DNA from: Histomonas meleagridis | Taxonomy: Eukaryota > Parabasalia > Tritrichomonadida > Dientamoebidae | Length of the DNA stretch: 64,000 nucleotides | Direction of reading: 5' to 3' | NCBI GenBank assembly: GCA_020186115.1 | Contig: WSYJ01000013.1 | Coordinates: 186,001 to 250,000, forward strand | Shown: one piece after another, positions 47,004-63,674 of the stretch | Position numbering within the stretch: the stretch's first letter is position 1 | Layout of the letters: every line of letters starts with the position of its first letter | The notes under the pieces: generated by a model | Seen by the model: the letters and a program-made list of their open reading frames with translations, nothing else | Databases searched by the model: none | Told to the model about the DNA's origin: nothing | Made by a program: the position numbers and the translations under genes

Positions 47004-47452
47004 ATTTGTAAATAAAATATAGATTTATGTTTTGCAAATACTTTTGCATTGTTTGATTTGCTTCTCAAAATGCTATTGGATCTTAAAAAAATTAATTTAA
47101 AAATAATCCTAGTAAAATATAATTGGAAAATGATAAAACATATGATGATAATTTTATCGGATTTACTTAAATTACCAGAAAATTTTAAAAATATTTGAAT
47201 ATAAATGCTATTTAACTATTTCTGTGTGACCATTATAATAATTGCTGTTCTAAATTCTTAAAAAAAATCCAAATATTACCCGAAAATATCGAATTATTAA
47301 AATAAGTTTCAAATAAAGCAAATAAATCTCTTTAGGATTATTATCAATTCCTTCTTGTTCAAGAAGTAATTTAACTATTTCTGTATGACCATTTTGAGAT
47401 GCTAAAATAAGTGCTGTATTAAATAATTTAAATAATTTTCAAATATTATTTT

Positions 47453-47950
47453 GAATTCTCATCAAGCCACTTTTTGAAATGAAAAAATTAAAAAAAATAA
47501 TTTCGTTCACAATTTTCAATTCAATTTAAAATTGCAAAAATTTTATTGTTTATATAGAAAGTGCCTCTGAAATTTCCATACCAGCTCTGCTCATGTCTAC
47601 TGAAAATAATGTGTAAAACTATTAATGTAAGCTAGTAACGTACAACATTTCATATTCTGATTCTTTTTAAATATAATGAATGCAACCATTTTGTCATGAG
47701 TAATAGGAAATGGTTCTTCGTGTATTAGATTTATCATCACTTTGGCATAAGCATGAATCAGCCTATCATATGTACTTTTCGTTCCTGCTGAAACATTTGC
47801 GGCTGATATTGTATCAGCTTCAGCAAGTAATTGCTCCATCAATGACATTTTAAATATGATTCATAAAAAAAACTTAAAAACAATATTGAAAATTGTGAGC
47901 GAAATTACTTTTTTTAATTTTTTCATTTCAAAAAGTGTCGATGAGAATTA
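47453..47950. mobile_element. 498-bp inverted-repeat element carrying a tyrosine-recombinase-like fragment
   Basis: Inverted repeats of about 66-68 bp lie at 47453-47520 and 47882-47950. They share AATTCTCATC, then CACTTTTTGAAATGAAAAAA and the inner TCACAATTTTCAAT, with only a few differences including a 3-nt indel. It is inserted into a spacer of the ankyrin pseudogene, with spacer remnants on both sides. The interior codes for an 83-residue fragment (47597-47848). No unambiguous target duplication can be defined because the right side continues into a 65-bp hairpin. Confidence 0.75.
47597..47848 (-). CDS. Tyrosine-recombinase-like N-terminal (core-binding) domain, short
   Basis: An 83-residue protein inside the inverted-repeat element. 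KSTYDRLIHAYAKVMINLIHEEPFPITHDKMVAFIIFKKNQNMKCCTLLAYINSFTHYF has the helical pattern of the SAM-like core-binding domain of phage-integrase-type recombinases (T-TY----F-F------P-T----F------TL--Y--S). No catalytic domain (R-H-R-Y) follows, so it cannot recombine DNA alone. It may be a non-autonomous deletion copy or a DNA-binding regulator of a larger element. The start ATG is at 47846-47848. The assignment rests on pattern only. Confidence 0.45.
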   Translation of the reverse strand: MSLMEQLLAEADTISAANVSAGTKSTYDRLIHAYAKVMINLIHEEPFPITHDKMVAFIIFKKNQNMKCCTLLAYINSFTHYFQ

Positions 47951-47953
47951 CAC

Positions 47954-48018
47954 ATAATAAAGGCAACTTTTTAAGACGATGACCAAAGTTCATCGTCTTA
48001 AAAAGTTGCCTTTATTAT
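47954..48018. repeat. 65-bp perfect hairpin (29-bp arms, 7-nt loop)
   Basis: Arms 47954-47982 and 47990-48018 are exact complements around the loop CCAAAGT; the core reads AAGGCAACTTTTTAAGACGA. It adjoins the right end of the inverted-repeat element within the spacer of the ankyrin pseudogene. A perfect palindrome this long implies recent origin. It may be a separate fold-back element or a by-product of insertion. Confidence 0.75.
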
Positions 48019-49704
48019 TTGTGAAATATCAAAGAATACAAATAAATTTTATTAGCATTAATATCAATTCCTTTTTGTTCAAGAAGTAATTTAACTATTT
48101 CTATTTCACCTTTTTCAGATGCATACATAAGTGCAGTATAAAAATAAGCATAAAAGAAAATCTAATTCATTAAAATGAACAGTAAAAAAGTTGGATAAAT
48201 ATCTTTTGAATTAATATCAATATCATTTTGTTCAATAAGCATTTTGAATATCTCAATATTGTTATATTGTGATGCCCAAATAAGTGCTGTTTTAAATGAT
48301 TACAATTAAATCCGAATATCATTAAAACACATCAAATTTTAGAAAGATATTTTATACAAAACTAAAAAACATTTCTTGCACTAACATTAATTCCTTCTTG
48401 TTCGAGAAGAAATTTAACTATGCCACAATTCTCATATTCTGATGCAATTATAAGTGCTGTATCAAACAATACCAATGAAAATTAAATATTTTAAAGAAAT
48501 CCATTTCCCACGAAATTAACATTAAATAGAAATATTGAATATCTTTAACATTTACATTTATTTTCTTTTGTGTTATAAGATATTTAACTAATTCTAAATT
48601 ACCTGATTTTGAAGCTGCTACTAAAACATCATTTGCTATTTGAACCTCTTCATTAAAATATTGAACAAGAAATATATTTCCATTCTTAGGTGCTTCATTC
48701 ATAAAAGAATCATCAATTTCCATTCCTTCATCTTTGAAATATGTGAAAAGTTCATAGTTATTATGATAAATACATTGTCTTCCAAATTCGGCTATATATC
48801 TTACATCTAAAATTTCGTTTTCATGAACATATTGCATAATATCAATTCGATGGAATTCAATTGCTGCTGAATATGCGCCTTCAAATGATGAATGATTTTG
48901 TTCACATAAATGAATTATCTCTAAGTTTCCCCCTGCAATTGCATATTTACCTGTATTTTTAACATTTGCACCATTCATAAGTAAAAATTTAAAACATTTA
49001 ATTGATCCAAAAAATGCTGCATAATCAATTAATGTAACATTTTCTTGGTTAACGAATGAACATCTTTCATAAAGTGATGGTTCGATTGCTTGATTAAAAT
49101 TAAAATTATCTCGTGATGATATTTCTTGAAGTTTTTCTATTTCATCATTTCGAATTATTTTTGCAATTTTATTTGGATTAATTCCTTCTTTAATTAATTG
49201 TTTATGAAGTTCTCAAGCATTCTTTGAAAGTTCTTCATAATTATCTAAAAATTGTTCTGAAAAAGGTTCATATTCGTCATTTTTGAGTTCATCTAAAGTT
49301 TTATATCGTGCAAAATAAAATGACTTTTTGTGTTAAGAATTTCATCATTAATAATATTTTTTTTCTAAAAGATAATCTGATTCTTGCGTTGTTTTGATAA
49401 GAAGAATATGTGAAAAAATATCAAAAATTTTGAAATCATTTTTAAACAATTCTTTTTCTTTTGCTTCAACTGCCTTTAAAAATTCAGAATAAATATTGAA
49501 ATCCTTCATTCTAGAAACAAAAGATGAATATACTGAATGACAAAGAACAAAATTAAAAGAAAATGGAAAATTAATATTAAAAAGATCTAAAGCTATTTGA
49601 ACATCACTCAAATTACTTCTCTCGTTCATGTTTAATGTGATATTTTGGAGAGTTTTTAACATATGTAAAGATTCTTTTTCTTGGCTTTCCATTAATGGCA
49701 AGAG

Positions 49705-54958: not shown

Positions 54959-57543
54959 ATGTTACCGCAGCCAATTCCTTTTCTTTTACATAATGGCAAT
55001 AAAAATATTACAATAAATTCAAAAGTAATCGAAATTCTATCATTGTCAAAAAGACCTTATCTAATCGTTATATATGGAAAGCATCAAACAGGAAAAAGCT
55101 CAATTTTAAATCAATTTATAAATGGGCCTGGTTATGAGAAATATTGTAACAAAAGTGAGCCAATAAAATTAGAACATATAAAAGAAACTTATTTTATTGG
55201 ACCTTTTAAACTGAAAGAATTACAAGAAAAAATGAAAATTCAATCAAATATTAAAGACGAAAATGAAAATGAGATTTTCTTTGTAGAAGGATCTGATAAT
55301 CCATCTGAGAAAATTGGCTTATTAACACTTCTACAAGTTTCGATTGTATCAATTTATGTTACTAAAGAAATTCCATCTTTTTCTTCAATGAAAAATCTTT
55401 TAGAAAATATCGAATATAATTTTTATATCAAGCAAATTTTCCCATCAATTTCAAATCAAGAAATTTGTCGACCAATTCTTTTTATTCATATTAAAGACAT
55501 TCCTGAAAAACTTGTATATTATTCAAAAGGAATGAAGAAATATTTAGATGATCAAGCTGAAGCAATTCATAATTCTATTTTATCATTTGATAATAATTTA
55601 CTTCTTGCTCAATTTTTATCAATTATAACATTACCAGAATATGTTCCAAATGATGAAGTTCAAACAAGAAAAACAGAACTTGATTTATATTGGAGTGAAT
55701 TAAATAGAACTTTTCATGAAATCATTACAGTTATAAATAAAAAGAATCCAATAAATGGGAAAACACTTTGCGAAATGATTAATTATTTGTTTCCAATATT
55801 TAATAATTTAAATGATTCAAATGATATTCAACAAATTATTTCTATAACTAAAACAAAATTTGATGAAATTGCAACACAAATAATTAATGAATATATGAAA
55901 AATTTGAAATCTGATATTAATAAATGTAATAAATTTATAAGCGATGATGCGTTTGCAGAAGAACAAATAAATGAGTGTATCAAAAAGAATCAAAATGATA
56001 TTTATCTAAAGCTAGTTCCAAATTTAGTAAATGATTACATGTTAAGAAAGATAATAAACTTGCAAGATGAAATTCGAGAATTTTTACATCAAGAAAATGT
56101 CAAAAATGAAAATGAAATTATTAAATATGCTAAAGATCAAAAAATTAGAATTAATGAAGAAATTTCTTTATTTTATTTGATATTTTTTCGAAATATTTAT
56201 TATTTATTTAATTTTTTTAAAAGTACTGAAACATTGTCAAAAATTCTTTTAAGTGCATCTAAAAATGGTCATTTAGAAATGGTTAAATTACTTCTTGGAA
56301 TAAAAGGAATTGATGTTAATGCTAAAAACATTTTTTTATTTTATTTGCTATATATTTTGTTAATTTGATGTTTTGATTTAATCATTTTATGTTACTAAAT
56401 AACATTTAGAAATTATTTATATTATTTGATACAGCACTTATGAATGCATCTATAAATGGTCATACAGATATAGTAAAACTACTTTTAGAACAAAAAGAAA
56501 TTGATATAAATGCTAAAAATGTTTAAATGTTTTATTTAATATTTGGTAAATTTTTTTGATGTTTGACTAAAATATTTGGAAATTATTTAAAATATTTAAT
56601 ACAGCATTTATGATAGCAACTTTAAAAGGTAATATTGAAGTAGTTAAATTGTTTCTTGAACAAAAAGAAACTGATATCAATGCAAAAAATGTTTTATTAT
56701 TTTGTTTAAATTTTATTTTCTTAATTTTATATTTCAAAATAATATTTGGAATTTGTTTAAATAATTTGATACAGCTCTTATTTTTGCAACAATTAATGGT
56801 CATATTGAATTGGTAGAAATTCTTCTTGGAGTAAAAGAAATTGATATCAATGCTAAAAATATTTATTTGTTAAATTTGATATTTATTTTCAATATTTTTT
56901 GTATTACAAAAAAATTTGGAAATTATTTAAATTATTTAAAACAGCACTTATGTTTGCAGCTGAAAATGCTAATGCTGATTTAGTTAAATTGCTTCTTCAA
57001 CAAGAAAAAATTTCTCTTAATGTTAAAGAAATTTGTTAATAATTTTTAAGATTTATTTAAATGATTTAACATTTAAAAATATCATTTGGAATATATATAA
57101 ATTATTCAAAACAGCACTTATTCTTGCATCTGAGAATGGTATTGTTGAAATAGTTAAATTACTTCTTGAACATGACAAAATCAATAGCAATATAAAAGAT
57201 ATTCATTCAATCCATTTTTTATTTATTTATAAAATTTAGTATTCCAAAACAAAATTTGGAATTTATTTTCATCATTTCAAACCGCGCTAATGCATGCGTG
57301 CGAGAAAGGTTATATCGAAGTAGTCAAGTTACTTGTACAACATGAAGGAAATGATATCAATGTTACCGATATTTTTACAATTCATTCAATATTTCACTTA
57401 ATAATTCGATATCCCAAACGAACACTTGGAAACTATTTCGTACATTTAACACAGCGCTCGCGTACGCAGCCAAAAACGACCAAAAAGAAATCGCCGAAGT
57501 ACTGAAACAAAACGGAATCAAAAGTAACTGTAACATATTATAA
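54959..57543 (+). CDS. GTPase-like (GBP/dynamin-type) protein with ankyrin cassettes split by 80-nt spacers
   Basis: The gene opens with a 469-codon frame (54959-56368). A P-loop YGKHQTGKSSILNQF lies at about residues 39-53, a possible switch FFVEGSDNPSEKIG follows, and then comes a long helical region. This resembles guanylate-binding-protein/dynamin-type GTPases, though a DxxG and base-recognition motif are not clear. The frame then enters ankyrin text (LLSASKNGHLEMVKLLLGIKGIDVNAKN). Ankyrin coding continues in seven further cassettes starting at 56431, 56601, 56771, 56941, 57111, 57281 and 57451, all without stops. The last ends with a C-terminal cap and TAA at 57541-57543. They are separated by spacers of 101 nt and then six of 80 nt. 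An 8-9-repeat protein of about 700 residues is inferred if the spacers are removed. A pseudogene is the alternative. Confidence 0.6.
56240..57543 (+). repeat. Tandem array of ankyrin cassettes in 170-nt register
   Basis: 90-nt cassettes (TALMNASINGHTDIVKLLL type) alternate with T-rich spacers at 56330-56430 (101 nt), 56521-56600, 56691-56770, 56861-56940, 57031-57110, 57201-57280 and 57371-57450 (80 nt each). Every 80-nt spacer begins RTTY and has TTTGGA (or CTTGGA) at positions 55-60. Just before the next cassette it encodes a Phe (TTT/TTC) two codons before the Thr. The cassettes stay ankyrin-like at protein level while their bases diverge strongly (for example AT-rich in unit 1, CpG-rich in unit 7). 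Confidence 0.85.
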
Positions 57544-60406: not shown

Positions 60407-60674
60407 CAAAGTGGCTACAAAAGTACTTCAATTCAAAATTTCAATAGAGATTGGCCGATAAATTGAGAGGAACCACAACCGGCCAAAGCGAGATTATGTG
60501 TCTTACAAAAAAGTTTTTAAGACGGCGGTTAAAATTGTTTCTTTACAAATTTGAGATCCGCTCTTCACAATTTCTCTATCGTCCTTTAATTGTAATCTGT
60601 CTGTGGTTAACACATAAAAAAAAGTTGAATTTTATTTTAGCAAATTTAAATTATTTTTTTTAAAGAAAAAATAT
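60407..60674. promoter_or_regulatory. Phosphorylase upstream spacer
   Basis: 268 bp between the phosphorylase ATG and the minisatellite. AACCGGCC at 60476-60483 and CCACTTTG just before the ATG are the only motifs noted. The frames here are not protein-like. Confidence 0.4.
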
Positions 60675-61100
60675 AATAAATAAATAATATTGGGCAAATT
60701 GAAATAATTATTTTTCCATAAGCAAAAAGATAACAAATGAATAATATTCAGCAAATTTAAACAATTTTTTCCATAAGCAAAAAGATAACAAATGAATTTT
60801 ATTCAGCAAATTTAAACAATTTTTTCCATAAGCAAAAAGATAACAAATGAATTTTATTCAGCAAATTTAAACAATTTTTTCCATAAGCAAAAAGATCATA
60901 AATAAATAATATTGGGCAAATTGAAATAATTATTTTTCCATAAGCAAAAAGATCATAAATAAATAATATTGGGCAAATTGAAATAATTATTTTTCCATAA
61001 GCAAAAAGATAACAAATGAATTTTATTCAGCAAATTCAAATAATTTTTTCCATAAGCAAAAAGATAACAAATGAATAATATTCGGCAAATTTAAACAATT
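60675..61100. repeat. Minisatellite, 56-57-bp units, two subtypes
   Basis: Seven and a half copies of a 56-57-bp unit, each containing TTTTTCCATAAGCAAAAAGA. Subtype A carries GGGCAAATTGAAATAATTA and is preceded by GATCATAAATAAAT (except the first copy). Subtype B carries CAGCAAATTTAAACAA and is preceded by GATAACAAATGAA. Order is A, B, B, B, A, A, B, then a partial B. It lies past the 3' end of the large ankyrin gene and upstream of the phosphorylase. No coding frame. Confidence 0.9.
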
Positions 61101-61139
61101 TTAAAATGATGAATTATTACATATTTATTTATTATCACT

Positions 61140-63674
61140 CTATTGTTTACACAAACGTTCGACTTCTTTCATAATTTCTTGGTTCCCGAATTTTAATATT
61201 TCGGATTTTATTTCTTTCATGTAGGACTTCGGCAATTTTTGCAACTTCTTCAACACCATCAACAATATGAACGGGTCGCTTTGCTTAAACAGCATCATAA
61301 TTTCATCATCCCTCAACTCGTTCACGTTTAAGTTTTTGTTGATTAAAGTTTTCACCAGATACGTAATGCCTTGTGTTCTTAAAGCCAACATCAATGCGCA
61401 TTCTCCTTTATTATTTCTATGGTTTGGGTCAATTCCATTATTTAATAATAGCACTGCTTTTTTGATACGTTTTATATCAGAAGAACTCATGTACAATGAA
61501 AGAAAGTTATTATGTGGAACATCAAACAGTTCCAATAATGCATTATTACCATTATTCGCGACATGATTAATATCAACACCTTTATCGATGAAATATTTCA
61601 TAATTTTCTTATCACAATCGTAATTAATTGAAGCAGAATGTATTAATATGTTTCGGCCTTTGGAATCTGTTTTGTTGACAATGTCAATTCCATTTTTAAT
61701 TAAGAAGTCATATGTCGGTATATGTTCTTTGTTATAAAACCCAAAGAAAATCGGCATATTCTCCTTTAAACTTTGTTGGAAATCTTTCATTCGATAACTT
61801 CGGCGATATCTAAATCCGAAAAATGATTTGTTTTTCTTTATGTTCACATCGAAGTTTGCTCCTTTCTTTACAAGTAATTCTAATAAAGGTATACATTTAC
61901 TTCTTAATGCATTAAATAATACTTCTTCTTGATGATCATTATATTGTATTTTAGCGCCTTTTTCGATAAGTAATTCAATGATTTTTAACATTGTTTCTTG
62001 TGTTTCATTTTCTTTTTGTTGTTCTTCATAATATCTATTGTTGAAATAAAATCGATTTGTTATCACTTGAATTGCTTCCACTAATGGGTTATTCGATGAA
62101 TGGAAATTAATATATCGAAAACCATTTTCAATTAATTTATCTTCGTTTTGATCTTCTTCTTCATTATCATTATCTAATGTTATTCCTTTATCGAATAATA
62201 ATTTAACACATTCATAAGAACGTGAATCAATTGCATAATTTAAGATTTCTCGTGTATTAAAGTTTTTTTCTGATAATGTTTCCCCATTTTCGATTAATAA
62301 TTTTATGATTTCGATGTTTCCAGTCTTAAATGCAGTATATAATGGGCTTTTGTTTCGACTTATCTTTAACGCGCCATGTTCAATTAATAATTTAACAAGA
62401 TCATAGTTCTTACGTTGAATTGGCATATCTAAGATTTGACTGTTTCGATATCTGTATTCGCCAGTGTTCGCATCTAAATTAAGTTTTAATCCTTTGTCGA
62501 ACAAATATTTGACTAATTCAGCATTACATGATGTGATTGCAGTATTAAGTGCTCCTGTTTCATCTTGTAAAAATTCACTAAATTTATCGCCATATATTTC
62601 TTCAAAGATTTTAACTATCTCAAGATTTCCTTGTGAACATGCTTCATTAAATGCAGTGCCTTCATATTTCCTCACTCGGATTTTTGGATCGGCTCCATTC
62701 TTAAGTAAATATCGGACAACTTTTGAATGCCCATTTTGAACTGCAGCATATAATGCCGTAACAGATTCTGATGTAATGATATTAATGTCTACTCCTTTCT
62801 TAATTAAATATTGGACAACATCTAAATGTCCTGATGATGCAGCTTCAACTAATGGAGTATATTTACGACGGCGATATGTGAATTGCGCGCCGGCTTTAAC
62901 AAGTTCTTTTATGACTGATAATGAGCCATGTCGTGATGCTAAGATCATAGGTGTACATGAACATCGATTTGGACGATTTTTATCAACGCCTTTTTCTAAT
63001 AAATAATGGACTATGGCAGCATGGCCGCCTATACATGCATGATGAATAGCACAAAGTCCACTGCCATCTTCGACATTGGGATCAACACCTTTGTTCATCA
63101 TAAAATCTACTATGTCTAAATGACCATTGGCACATGCCATGTACATTGGGATCTTATATGGACCAGTGATCGAATCATTAAATGATATCCCTTTAGACCA
63201 AAAATAATGGACCATCTCTAATTGACCAAATGCACATGCATAATGAATGGGCGTAAGATTGTCACTATCACGTTGAACTGGCCATGTATCATTTGTATCT
63301 AAAAGTCGTACAATTTCCATTGAACCTCCTGAAACTGCAAAGTGTTGTGGTATTCGCTGTTGGTAGTCATTAGTTTGATCAGATGCACCACAGTTTAAAA
63401 GTAATTGTACACATTTCTCGGCTTTAAAGAAACAAGCAACTGACAATAAAGGTGGGCGGTCTGAAAGTATTGGAAATTGTTGCTTAGATGTTAAAAAAAA
63501 TCGTGAGTCAACAGAATCTAAAGTGGATATAAAATCAGTTAGCTTCTCTTCGTCATCTTGAAGAATTATATCAATAAATTGGAGGGATTGTGAATCTTCG
63601 AGATTGTTTTCTAATGGTTCACCTGATGAAAAATAAAAAGGATGAAAATTGGGAAGTTTTGCTGCATGGTGCAT
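61140..63674 (-). CDS. Large ankyrin-repeat protein
   Basis: An 844-residue protein built mostly of ankyrin repeats (about 20), contiguous and in one frame, unlike the cassette array at 56.2 kb. Typical repeats are LTPIHYACAFGQLEMVHYFW, SGLCAIHHACIGGHAAIVHYLLEKGVDKN and VTALYAAVQNGHSKVVRYLLKNGAD. The first 60 residues are acidic/helical (FIDIILQDDEEKLTDFISTLDS), and the last 60 (VLKKLQKLPKSYMKEIKSEILKFG) are a helical cap. No membrane helix. Ankyrin proteins scaffold protein-protein contacts; the partner is unknown. The ATG at 63672-63674 follows a short CACTTTTT/AAAAAAGTGG hairpin by about 20 nt. TAG is followed by AGTGATAATAAA. Confidence 0.92.
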   Translation of the reverse strand: MHHAAKLPNFHPFYFSSGEPLENNLEDSQSLQFIDIILQDDEEKLTDFISTLDSVDSRFFLTSKQQFPILSDRPPLLSVACFFKAEKCVQLLLNCGASDQTNDYQQRIPQHFAVSGGSMEIVRLLDTNDTWPVQRDSDNLTPIHYACAFGQLEMVHYFWSKGISFNDSITGPYKIPMYMACANGHLDIVDFMMNKGVDPNVEDGSGLCAIHHACIGGHAAIVHYLLEKGVDKNRPNRCSCTPMILASRHGSLSVIKELVKAGAQFTYRRRKYTPLVEAASSGHLDVVQYLIKKGVDINIITSESVTALYAAVQNGHSKVVRYLLKNGADPKIRVRKYEGTAFNEACSQGNLEIVKIFEEIYGDKFSEFLQDETGALNTAITSCNAELVKYLFDKGLKLNLDANTGEYRYRNSQILDMPIQRKNYDLVKLLIEHGALKISRNKSPLYTAFKTGNIEIIKLLIENGETLSEKNFNTREILNYAIDSRSYECVKLLFDKGITLDNDNEEEDQNEDKLIENGFRYINFHSSNNPLVEAIQVITNRFYFNNRYYEEQQKENETQETMLKIIELLIEKGAKIQYNDHQEEVLFNALRSKCIPLLELLVKKGANFDVNIKKNKSFFGFRYRRSYRMKDFQQSLKENMPIFFGFYNKEHIPTYDFLIKNGIDIVNKTDSKGRNILIHSASINYDCDKKIMKYFIDKGVDINHVANNGNNALLELFDVPHNNFLSLYMSSSDIKRIKKAVLLLNNGIDPNHRNNKGECALMLALRTQGITYLVKTLINKNLNVNELRDDEIMMLFKQSDPFILLMVLKKLQKLPKSYMKEIKSEILKFGNQEIMKEVERLCKQ

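Follow-up and report, generated by a model that had tools for sequence, protein, structure and literature searches.

Ankyrin cassettes and spacers at the locus

The window analyzed here, a 64,000-nt stretch of the genome of the poultry parasite Histomonas meleagridis, contains on its plus strand (54959..57543) a coding region followed by ankyrin repeat cassettes that alternate with short spacers. The N-terminal coding part (54959..56164, 402 amino acids) is P-loop NTPase-like and belongs to an open reading frame, 54959-56368, that also takes in the 51-nt spacer behind it and the first cassette. Its matches are weak, with E=0.018 for guanylate-binding protein 5 in the PDB and E=0.0046, under the cut-off, for the Pfam family ATPase_2. 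The spacer preceding the first repeat (56165..56215) is in frame and open. The first ankyrin cassette, which includes an N-terminal cap (F-K-S-T-E-T-L...N-I), lies at 56216..56332, has a cassette start at 56240 and gives a PF00023 match of 22.3 bits within the open reading frame. A 92-nt spacer with the 3' end TTTAGAAATTATTTATATTA follows at 56333..56424.

A further seven cassette starts, the first of them 191 nt downstream of 56240, run from 56431 to 57451 in exact steps of 170 nt, as the preliminary description of this locus had stated. Tandem Repeats Finder (TRF) also detected the array, at periods of 170 (score 604) and 340 (score 810). The seven cassettes had also been described as open ankyrin repeats; all are open, and six of them pass the PF00023 cut-off of 21.1 bits, the last scoring 15.8 bits. 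The predicted coding pieces are 99 nt each. The first, at 56425..56523 (cassette 56431, F-D-T-A-L-M...N-V), scores 31.7 bits; those at 56595..56693 (cassette 56601), 56765..56863 (56771), 56935..57033 (56941) and 57105..57203 (57111) are all above the cut-off; and that at 57275..57373 (57281) scores 33.2 bits. The last cassette (57445..57543) forms a C-terminal cap, is a weak ankyrin match and ends, as described, in a TAA stop at 57541-57543. The spacers between these pieces are 71 nt long. That at 56524..56594 begins with TAA, that at 56694..56764 finishes with a TAA that is in frame with the following cassette, and that at 57034..57104 has TAA TAA in the cassette frame; the remaining three lie at 56864..56934, 57204..57274 and 57374..57444. 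The spacer stops noted earlier are thus present, with TAA at 56524, 57037 and 57040.

A second array of the same family is found on the minus strand of the window at 47258-48978. It has an N-terminal open reading frame at 48978-48448 and units near 48460, 48290, 48137 and 47417, and is interrupted between 48021 and 47417. Inside it, at 47468-47937, 53-nt terminal inverted repeats (96% complementary) flank 364 nt of sequence, an arrangement that resembles a mobile element. At the edge of this array (47950-48022), the arms of a 33-nt inverted repeat are 97% complementary and enclose a loop of 7 nt. Elsewhere in the window, a 55-nt tandem unit in 8.3 copies (60639-61102) separates a phosphorylase gene from an ordinary ankyrin gene, an 844-amino-acid open reading frame with contiguous repeats on the minus strand at 61140-63674.

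A family of arrays across the genome

A DNA search of the genome (43.28 Mb, 121 contigs) returned at least 130 matches that merged into at least 40 clusters, the cluster count being a lower bound with 40 of 1634 candidates scored. Because the 170-nt unit recurs across the H. meleagridis genome, the window array is not a product of chance. Units were surveyed in the window and 26 of the other 39 clusters (27 loci, 242 kb fetched), which hold 29 arrays of 4 to 41 units each and 398 units in total. Of the 370 adjacent starts that lie less than 200 nt apart at these loci, 308 are exactly 170 nt from their neighbour; the other spacings were mainly 171, 173, 153, 167 and 150 nt. Stop counts given below refer to the 308 exact-length units of the 398, and the removal scan to 306 of them, two having been dropped for a stop inside the cassette. 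Five further loci, L047-L051, were kept apart from the unit counts. Five hits with E<0.01 fell outside the array spans, all of them, by reading, beside other family units, and no solitary spacer was seen away from arrays in the fetched 242 kb.

Many of the arrays have ends like those of genes. In 18 of the 29, the 300 nt upstream and the first cassette are stop-free in one frame, and 12, the window array included, close with a stop that falls at codons 19-31 of the last cassette; both features favour removal of the spacers from the RNA, the reading considered throughout what follows. In the other 11 arrays, stops interrupt the first cassette or the 300 nt ahead of it, which counts against removal. 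By reading, a spacer apparently precedes the first cassette at L012, L031 and L033, and L011 has a frame break. The word LCEQN of an N-terminal family occurs upstream of the first cassette in 17 of the 29 arrays, and the LCEQN part of L009 is assigned to DUF3447 by Pfam. The N-terminal part of the window gene, with its weak likeness to guanylate-binding protein 5, is unlike this type. Tritrichomonas, also a parabasalid, has ankyrin proteins of the same N-terminal family (DUF3447, PF11929). They are unlike the Histomonas arrays in that the one protein read, P0022 from T. foetus, has ankyrin-like repeats that follow one another directly, with no spacers. Searches of an open-access library returned no account of arrays like those of Histomonas.

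Stop codons, frames and the size of the presumed removed piece

Across the 308 units, seven of 9548 cassette codons are stops, and these seven come from two units; the spacers contain 189 stops in 7084 codons in the frame of the previous cassette and 130 in 7392 codons in the frame of the next. That the cassettes are nearly stop-free while the spacers of the same units hold many stops favours removal. Frameshifting without removal was rejected as an explanation, the spacer being often stopped both in frame 0 and in the frame of the next cassette. When stops were counted by codon place, the cassette frame had none at 82-93, six at 94-96 and six at 97-99, and the frame of the next cassette had 35 at 147-149, seven at 159-161, nine at 162-164 and none at 165-167 or 168-170. 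Stop-free coding starts with a Phe codon (165-167) and ends with an Ile/Val codon (91-93). At the hypervariable triplet 168-170, which encodes K, N, E, R, D, Y, Q or W, about 26 stops would be expected if columns were independent.

The scarcity of stops in the cassettes extends to both their conserved and their variable codons. In the 24 of 31 cassette codons that are not variable, five stops were seen against 83 expected from the spacer's own substitutions. At variable codons 5, 8, 9 and 33, the 308 units have 0, 0, 1 and 0 stops, where independent columns would give 48.5, 58.8, 10.3 and 26.1. By the spacer's own rates, spacer stops numbered 37 against 64.7 expected at 94-126 in the cassette frame (ratio 0.57), 40 against 45.7 at 93-128 in the next frame (0.88) and 90 against 119.7 at 129-164 in the next frame (0.75). 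When rates were taken from 11 four-fold sites, stops stood at 0.02 of expectation in the cassettes, at 0.22-0.55 in the spacer in the cassette frames and at 0.87 in the third spacer frame; spacer stops are therefore partly avoided. Codons at 144-158 of the spacer also look constrained (replacement 0.39, silent 0.65), and these two observations count against removal. Stops are thus tolerated much more in the spacer than in the cassette, though not without limit.

Frame-keeping pieces of 59, 62, 65, 68, 71, 74, 77 and 80 nt, with starts from position 85 on, were scanned as candidates for the removed piece. Every placement of a piece of 68 nt or less broke at least six of the 306 units, six being the number for the best 68-nt piece. 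Among pieces of up to 71 nt, only the 71-nt pieces at 93-163 and 94-164 kept all 306 units open, which favours removal; the 71-nt piece at 92-162 broke one. Some pieces longer than 71 nt work too because less sequence is kept. The open coding piece accordingly measures 99 nt at most, or 33 residues, in agreement with the 71-nt, 33-residue model first put forward for the window array. Indels in the spacers were not multiples of three in 33 of 41 cases, again in favour of removal. Constant spacer length says little alone, since indels are rare overall (59 in 279 hits).

Pooled pN/pS was 0.70 in the window cassettes and 0.68 in L051, and 1.20 and 0.76 in the window spacers. The preliminary description had proposed a comparison of dN/dS between cassettes and spacers. 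The result was weak: wrong-frame controls gave 0.48 and 1.12, and pN/pS was therefore treated as not diagnostic and was not used. The weak pN/pS, together with arrays that are broken (the 11 stopped before or in the first cassette, and 25 of the 398 units with a stop within positions 1-93), would fit pseudogenes held alike by unequal exchange only. We consider this explanation rather improbable given that stops are almost confined to the spacers of the units and that the hypervariable codons almost never reach a stop. For removal itself, the undiagnostic pN/pS and the stopped units count as evidence against, as do the indels inside cassettes, 9 of 18 of which break the frame.

Diverged arrays and related proteins

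In the diverged array L051, nine more coding pieces, spread over three frames, follow an N-terminal open reading frame. Of the nine spacers, five are 71 nt long and the others 54, 51, 37 and, with a provisional end, 59 nt. One junction has no spacer and reads N-N-R-G-K-C-A-L, an ordinary ankyrin loop at the place of the junction. Removal is favoured both by the pieces in three frames and by this spacerless junction. Spacer lengths in L051 and L048-L050 (71, 54, 51 and 37 nt) are separated by steps of 17 or 20.

The 153-nt units contain one extra codon and a 51-nt spacer and are in frame (IYFNNLIFQNNIWKLFKLF). Their spacers could be translated linkers within 51-residue repeats, with the 170-nt units as decayed versions. 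The same peptide occurs in open reading frames of relatives, and the constraint at codons 144-158 and the partial avoidance of spacer stops would be expected of a linker. The relatives' short open reading frames, in which cassettes and spacers of a similar kind are seen (35 of the 37 proteins found were read), are however a sample selected for openness. Among the in-frame 153-nt units of L048-L050, 8 of 16 have a stop in the spacer, a proportion that favours removal, and the 170-nt units are the majority, with cassettes that are open despite being out of frame. On this balance translated linkers appear unlikely.

With the N-terminal part of L009 as protein query, 28 relatives were found. Of the 17 whose open reading frames were read, eight end exactly at the Ile/Val codon that borders the spacer, which favours removal of the spacer. 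One of the eight is P0013, an annotated H. meleagridis protein; by this example, read at the protein level only, proteins of this type are probably truncated by gene prediction where the first spacer is reached. The same eight open reading frames would also fit an arrangement in which only the N-terminal part and first cassette are expressed and the downstream cassettes are silent gene-conversion donors, kept open by copying into the expressed place. The likeness of units from different loci, and the whole-codon differences between near-identical pairs, also speak for it. Several observations make this arrangement improbable. The first cassette of the printed DUF3447-type arrays is a distinct type (LVFASxSGNIELVxYxLKQ and similar) and, by reading, no copy of the downstream cassettes, and a cap-like stop ends 12 of the 29 arrays. 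No contiguous near-identical acceptor was found either: among the best 150 of 8509 candidates in the genome, contiguous multi-repeat matches without a length gap reached 58% identity at most, which also favours removal. A protein search with the joined form, covering proteins of 146-464 amino acids, found nothing close among the best 120 of 5609 matches, the top one reaching 59% identity, and this counts against removal.

Signals in the spacers

The spacers are AT-rich, and their signals differ from those of ordinary GT-AG introns. A frame-keeping, stop-free GT-AG pair is present in 61 of 306 units, so few that the spacers do not have the form of GT-AG spliceosomal introns, and the spacer of 13 of the 16 153-nt units contains no GT. 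In a study of Trichomonas vaginalis (PMC12316389), introns of types A and B run from GT to AG, with a GYAYGY motif at the 5' end and, fused to the 3' end, a CTAA branch site; they occur singly in 63 transcripts. The Histomonas spacers are like these spliceosomal introns in being short intervening sequences of a parabasalid with a conserved part near the 3' end. Unlike them, they rarely contain CTAAC (2 of 308) or GTAYGT (4 of 308), and they stand in arrays of 4-41 units. A search for GTATGT...CTAACACACAG at gaps of 3-33 nt, which covers introns of up to about 50 nt only, gave no match in 43.3 Mb. A guessed branch and 3' motif, CTAAYAACACAG, was dropped because it matched 8 times and its reversed control 10 times.

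In 11 diverged 71-nt spacers, the first 6 nt had a likeness of 0.424 against 0.404 from composition, and the remainder ranged from 0.55 to 0.75 with a peak at 52-60, that is ATTTGGAA and its neighbours. This best conserved stretch of the spacer lies about 20 nt ahead of the 3' boundary. Across the 308 units, divergence is lowest in this same stretch, at 144-151: 4.1%, compared with 6.5% in the spacer and 7.9% at four-fold sites. That the first 6 nt are at composition level and that GT-AG fits few units count against removal. For the "tiny intervening sequences" of the preliminary description, introns of the ordinary kind are unsupported because GT-AG is mostly unusable, the Trichomonas words are rare and the 5' boundary is unconserved. 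The genome encodes a U6-like snRNA with ACAGAGA (43.7 bits, just under the cut-off of 44) and two U2 snRNAs with GTAGTA; U1 and U5 models gave no match in the genome and none in the controls either. The arrays are without signals that match the snRNA machinery found (U6-like and U2).

RNA structure was rejected as a spacer signal. Spacers folded no better than shuffles (z-scores -0.10, 0.40 and -0.39), and no compensating pairs were seen among the 40 highest-scoring pairs in 151 distinct spacers. These results bear also on programmed bypassing, by which the ribosome would skip the spacer. Short AT-rich, frame-breaking inserts without ordinary splice signals would suit such a process, but bypassing needs matching take-off and landing codons, and in the consensus ATT (91-93) faces TTA (162-164), which are not identical. 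With the folding and pairing results also against it, bypassing is very unlikely. Non-canonical introns, or introners, have been confirmed by RNA-seq in many genes of Amoebophrya, a subset of them with direct and inverted repeats (PMC7789003). Like these, the Histomonas spacers interrupt coding genes and have neither GT-AG nor any other fixed dinucleotides at their ends. They are unlike them in that removal is here inferred, that no inverted repeats pairing the ends were seen in the 40 best pairs of the 151 spacers, and that they have so far been found only with ankyrin repeats.

Variable codons in the cassettes

In 138 disjoint closest pairs of units, codons 5, 8 and 33 have 36-37 differences per column, compared with 8.2 at four-fold sites and 7.0 in other spacer columns. 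In the 85 of these pairs that have no more than 6 differences elsewhere, 94 of the 255 codons at these three places differ, 59 of them by two or three bases. This suggests patch exchange under diversifying selection at codons 5, 8 and 33, which we take, from designed ankyrin proteins, to lie on the binding face. Such a placement of variable ankyrin codons agrees with a study of fungal NLR proteins, whose ANK, WD and TPR repeats are highly conserved and hypervariable (PMC4986451). As in the fungal proteins, the Histomonas arrays combine conserved, near-identical repeats, here with variable codons 5, 8 and 33, with variable binding-face positions and signs of repeat exchange, and thus have the features of a hypervariable repertoire in concerted evolution. 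The NTPase-like N-terminal part of the window gene is a further, weak resemblance. A difference is that short inter-repeat spacers are unmentioned for the fungal repeats in the available part of that source. Seven spacer columns (108-110, 128-130 and 162) are nearly as variable as codons 5, 8 and 33, with 29.1 differences per column, and this variability is without explanation by protein selection. In L009-L035 and the window, the triplets 108-110 and 128-130 each follow ATTT, like the coding triplet 168-170.

Discussion

We infer removal at the RNA level from stop placement, frame breaks, gene-like ends and hypervariable codons, all of them features of the sequence. With the machinery left aside, we give a probability of about 0.6 to the reading that the spacers are removed from the RNA as non-canonical introns. 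The window array would then be one gene encoding an N-terminal domain and eight ankyrin repeats, one per cassette. The AT-rich spacers would be cut from the transcript and the cassettes would join as ...N-A-K-D-I|F-x-T-A-L..., with 33 residues per repeat and 71 nt removed in 170-nt units, and 34 residues per repeat and 51 nt removed in 153-nt units. The array protein is probably a member of a diversified binding or recognition family. A more specific proposal is tentative and somewhat doubtful: that a parabasalid removes up to dozens of pieces of 37-92 nt per gene, one per ankyrin repeat, without GT-AG or a conserved 5' boundary and guided by an element near the 3' end, in a layout that may shuffle a hypervariable ankyrin repertoire.

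For a virulent H. meleagridis strain, PMC8529796 gives 573 introns and at maximum one per gene, in line with the earlier remark that introns are rare in this lineage. If the spacers are removed, a species described with at most one intron per gene would have arrays of 4 to 41 units with a non-GT-AG intervening sequence between each, and non-canonical splicing would be directly testable in a culturable protist. Splicing aside, this large family, with its variability mostly in a few ankyrin codons, is a candidate recognition repertoire.
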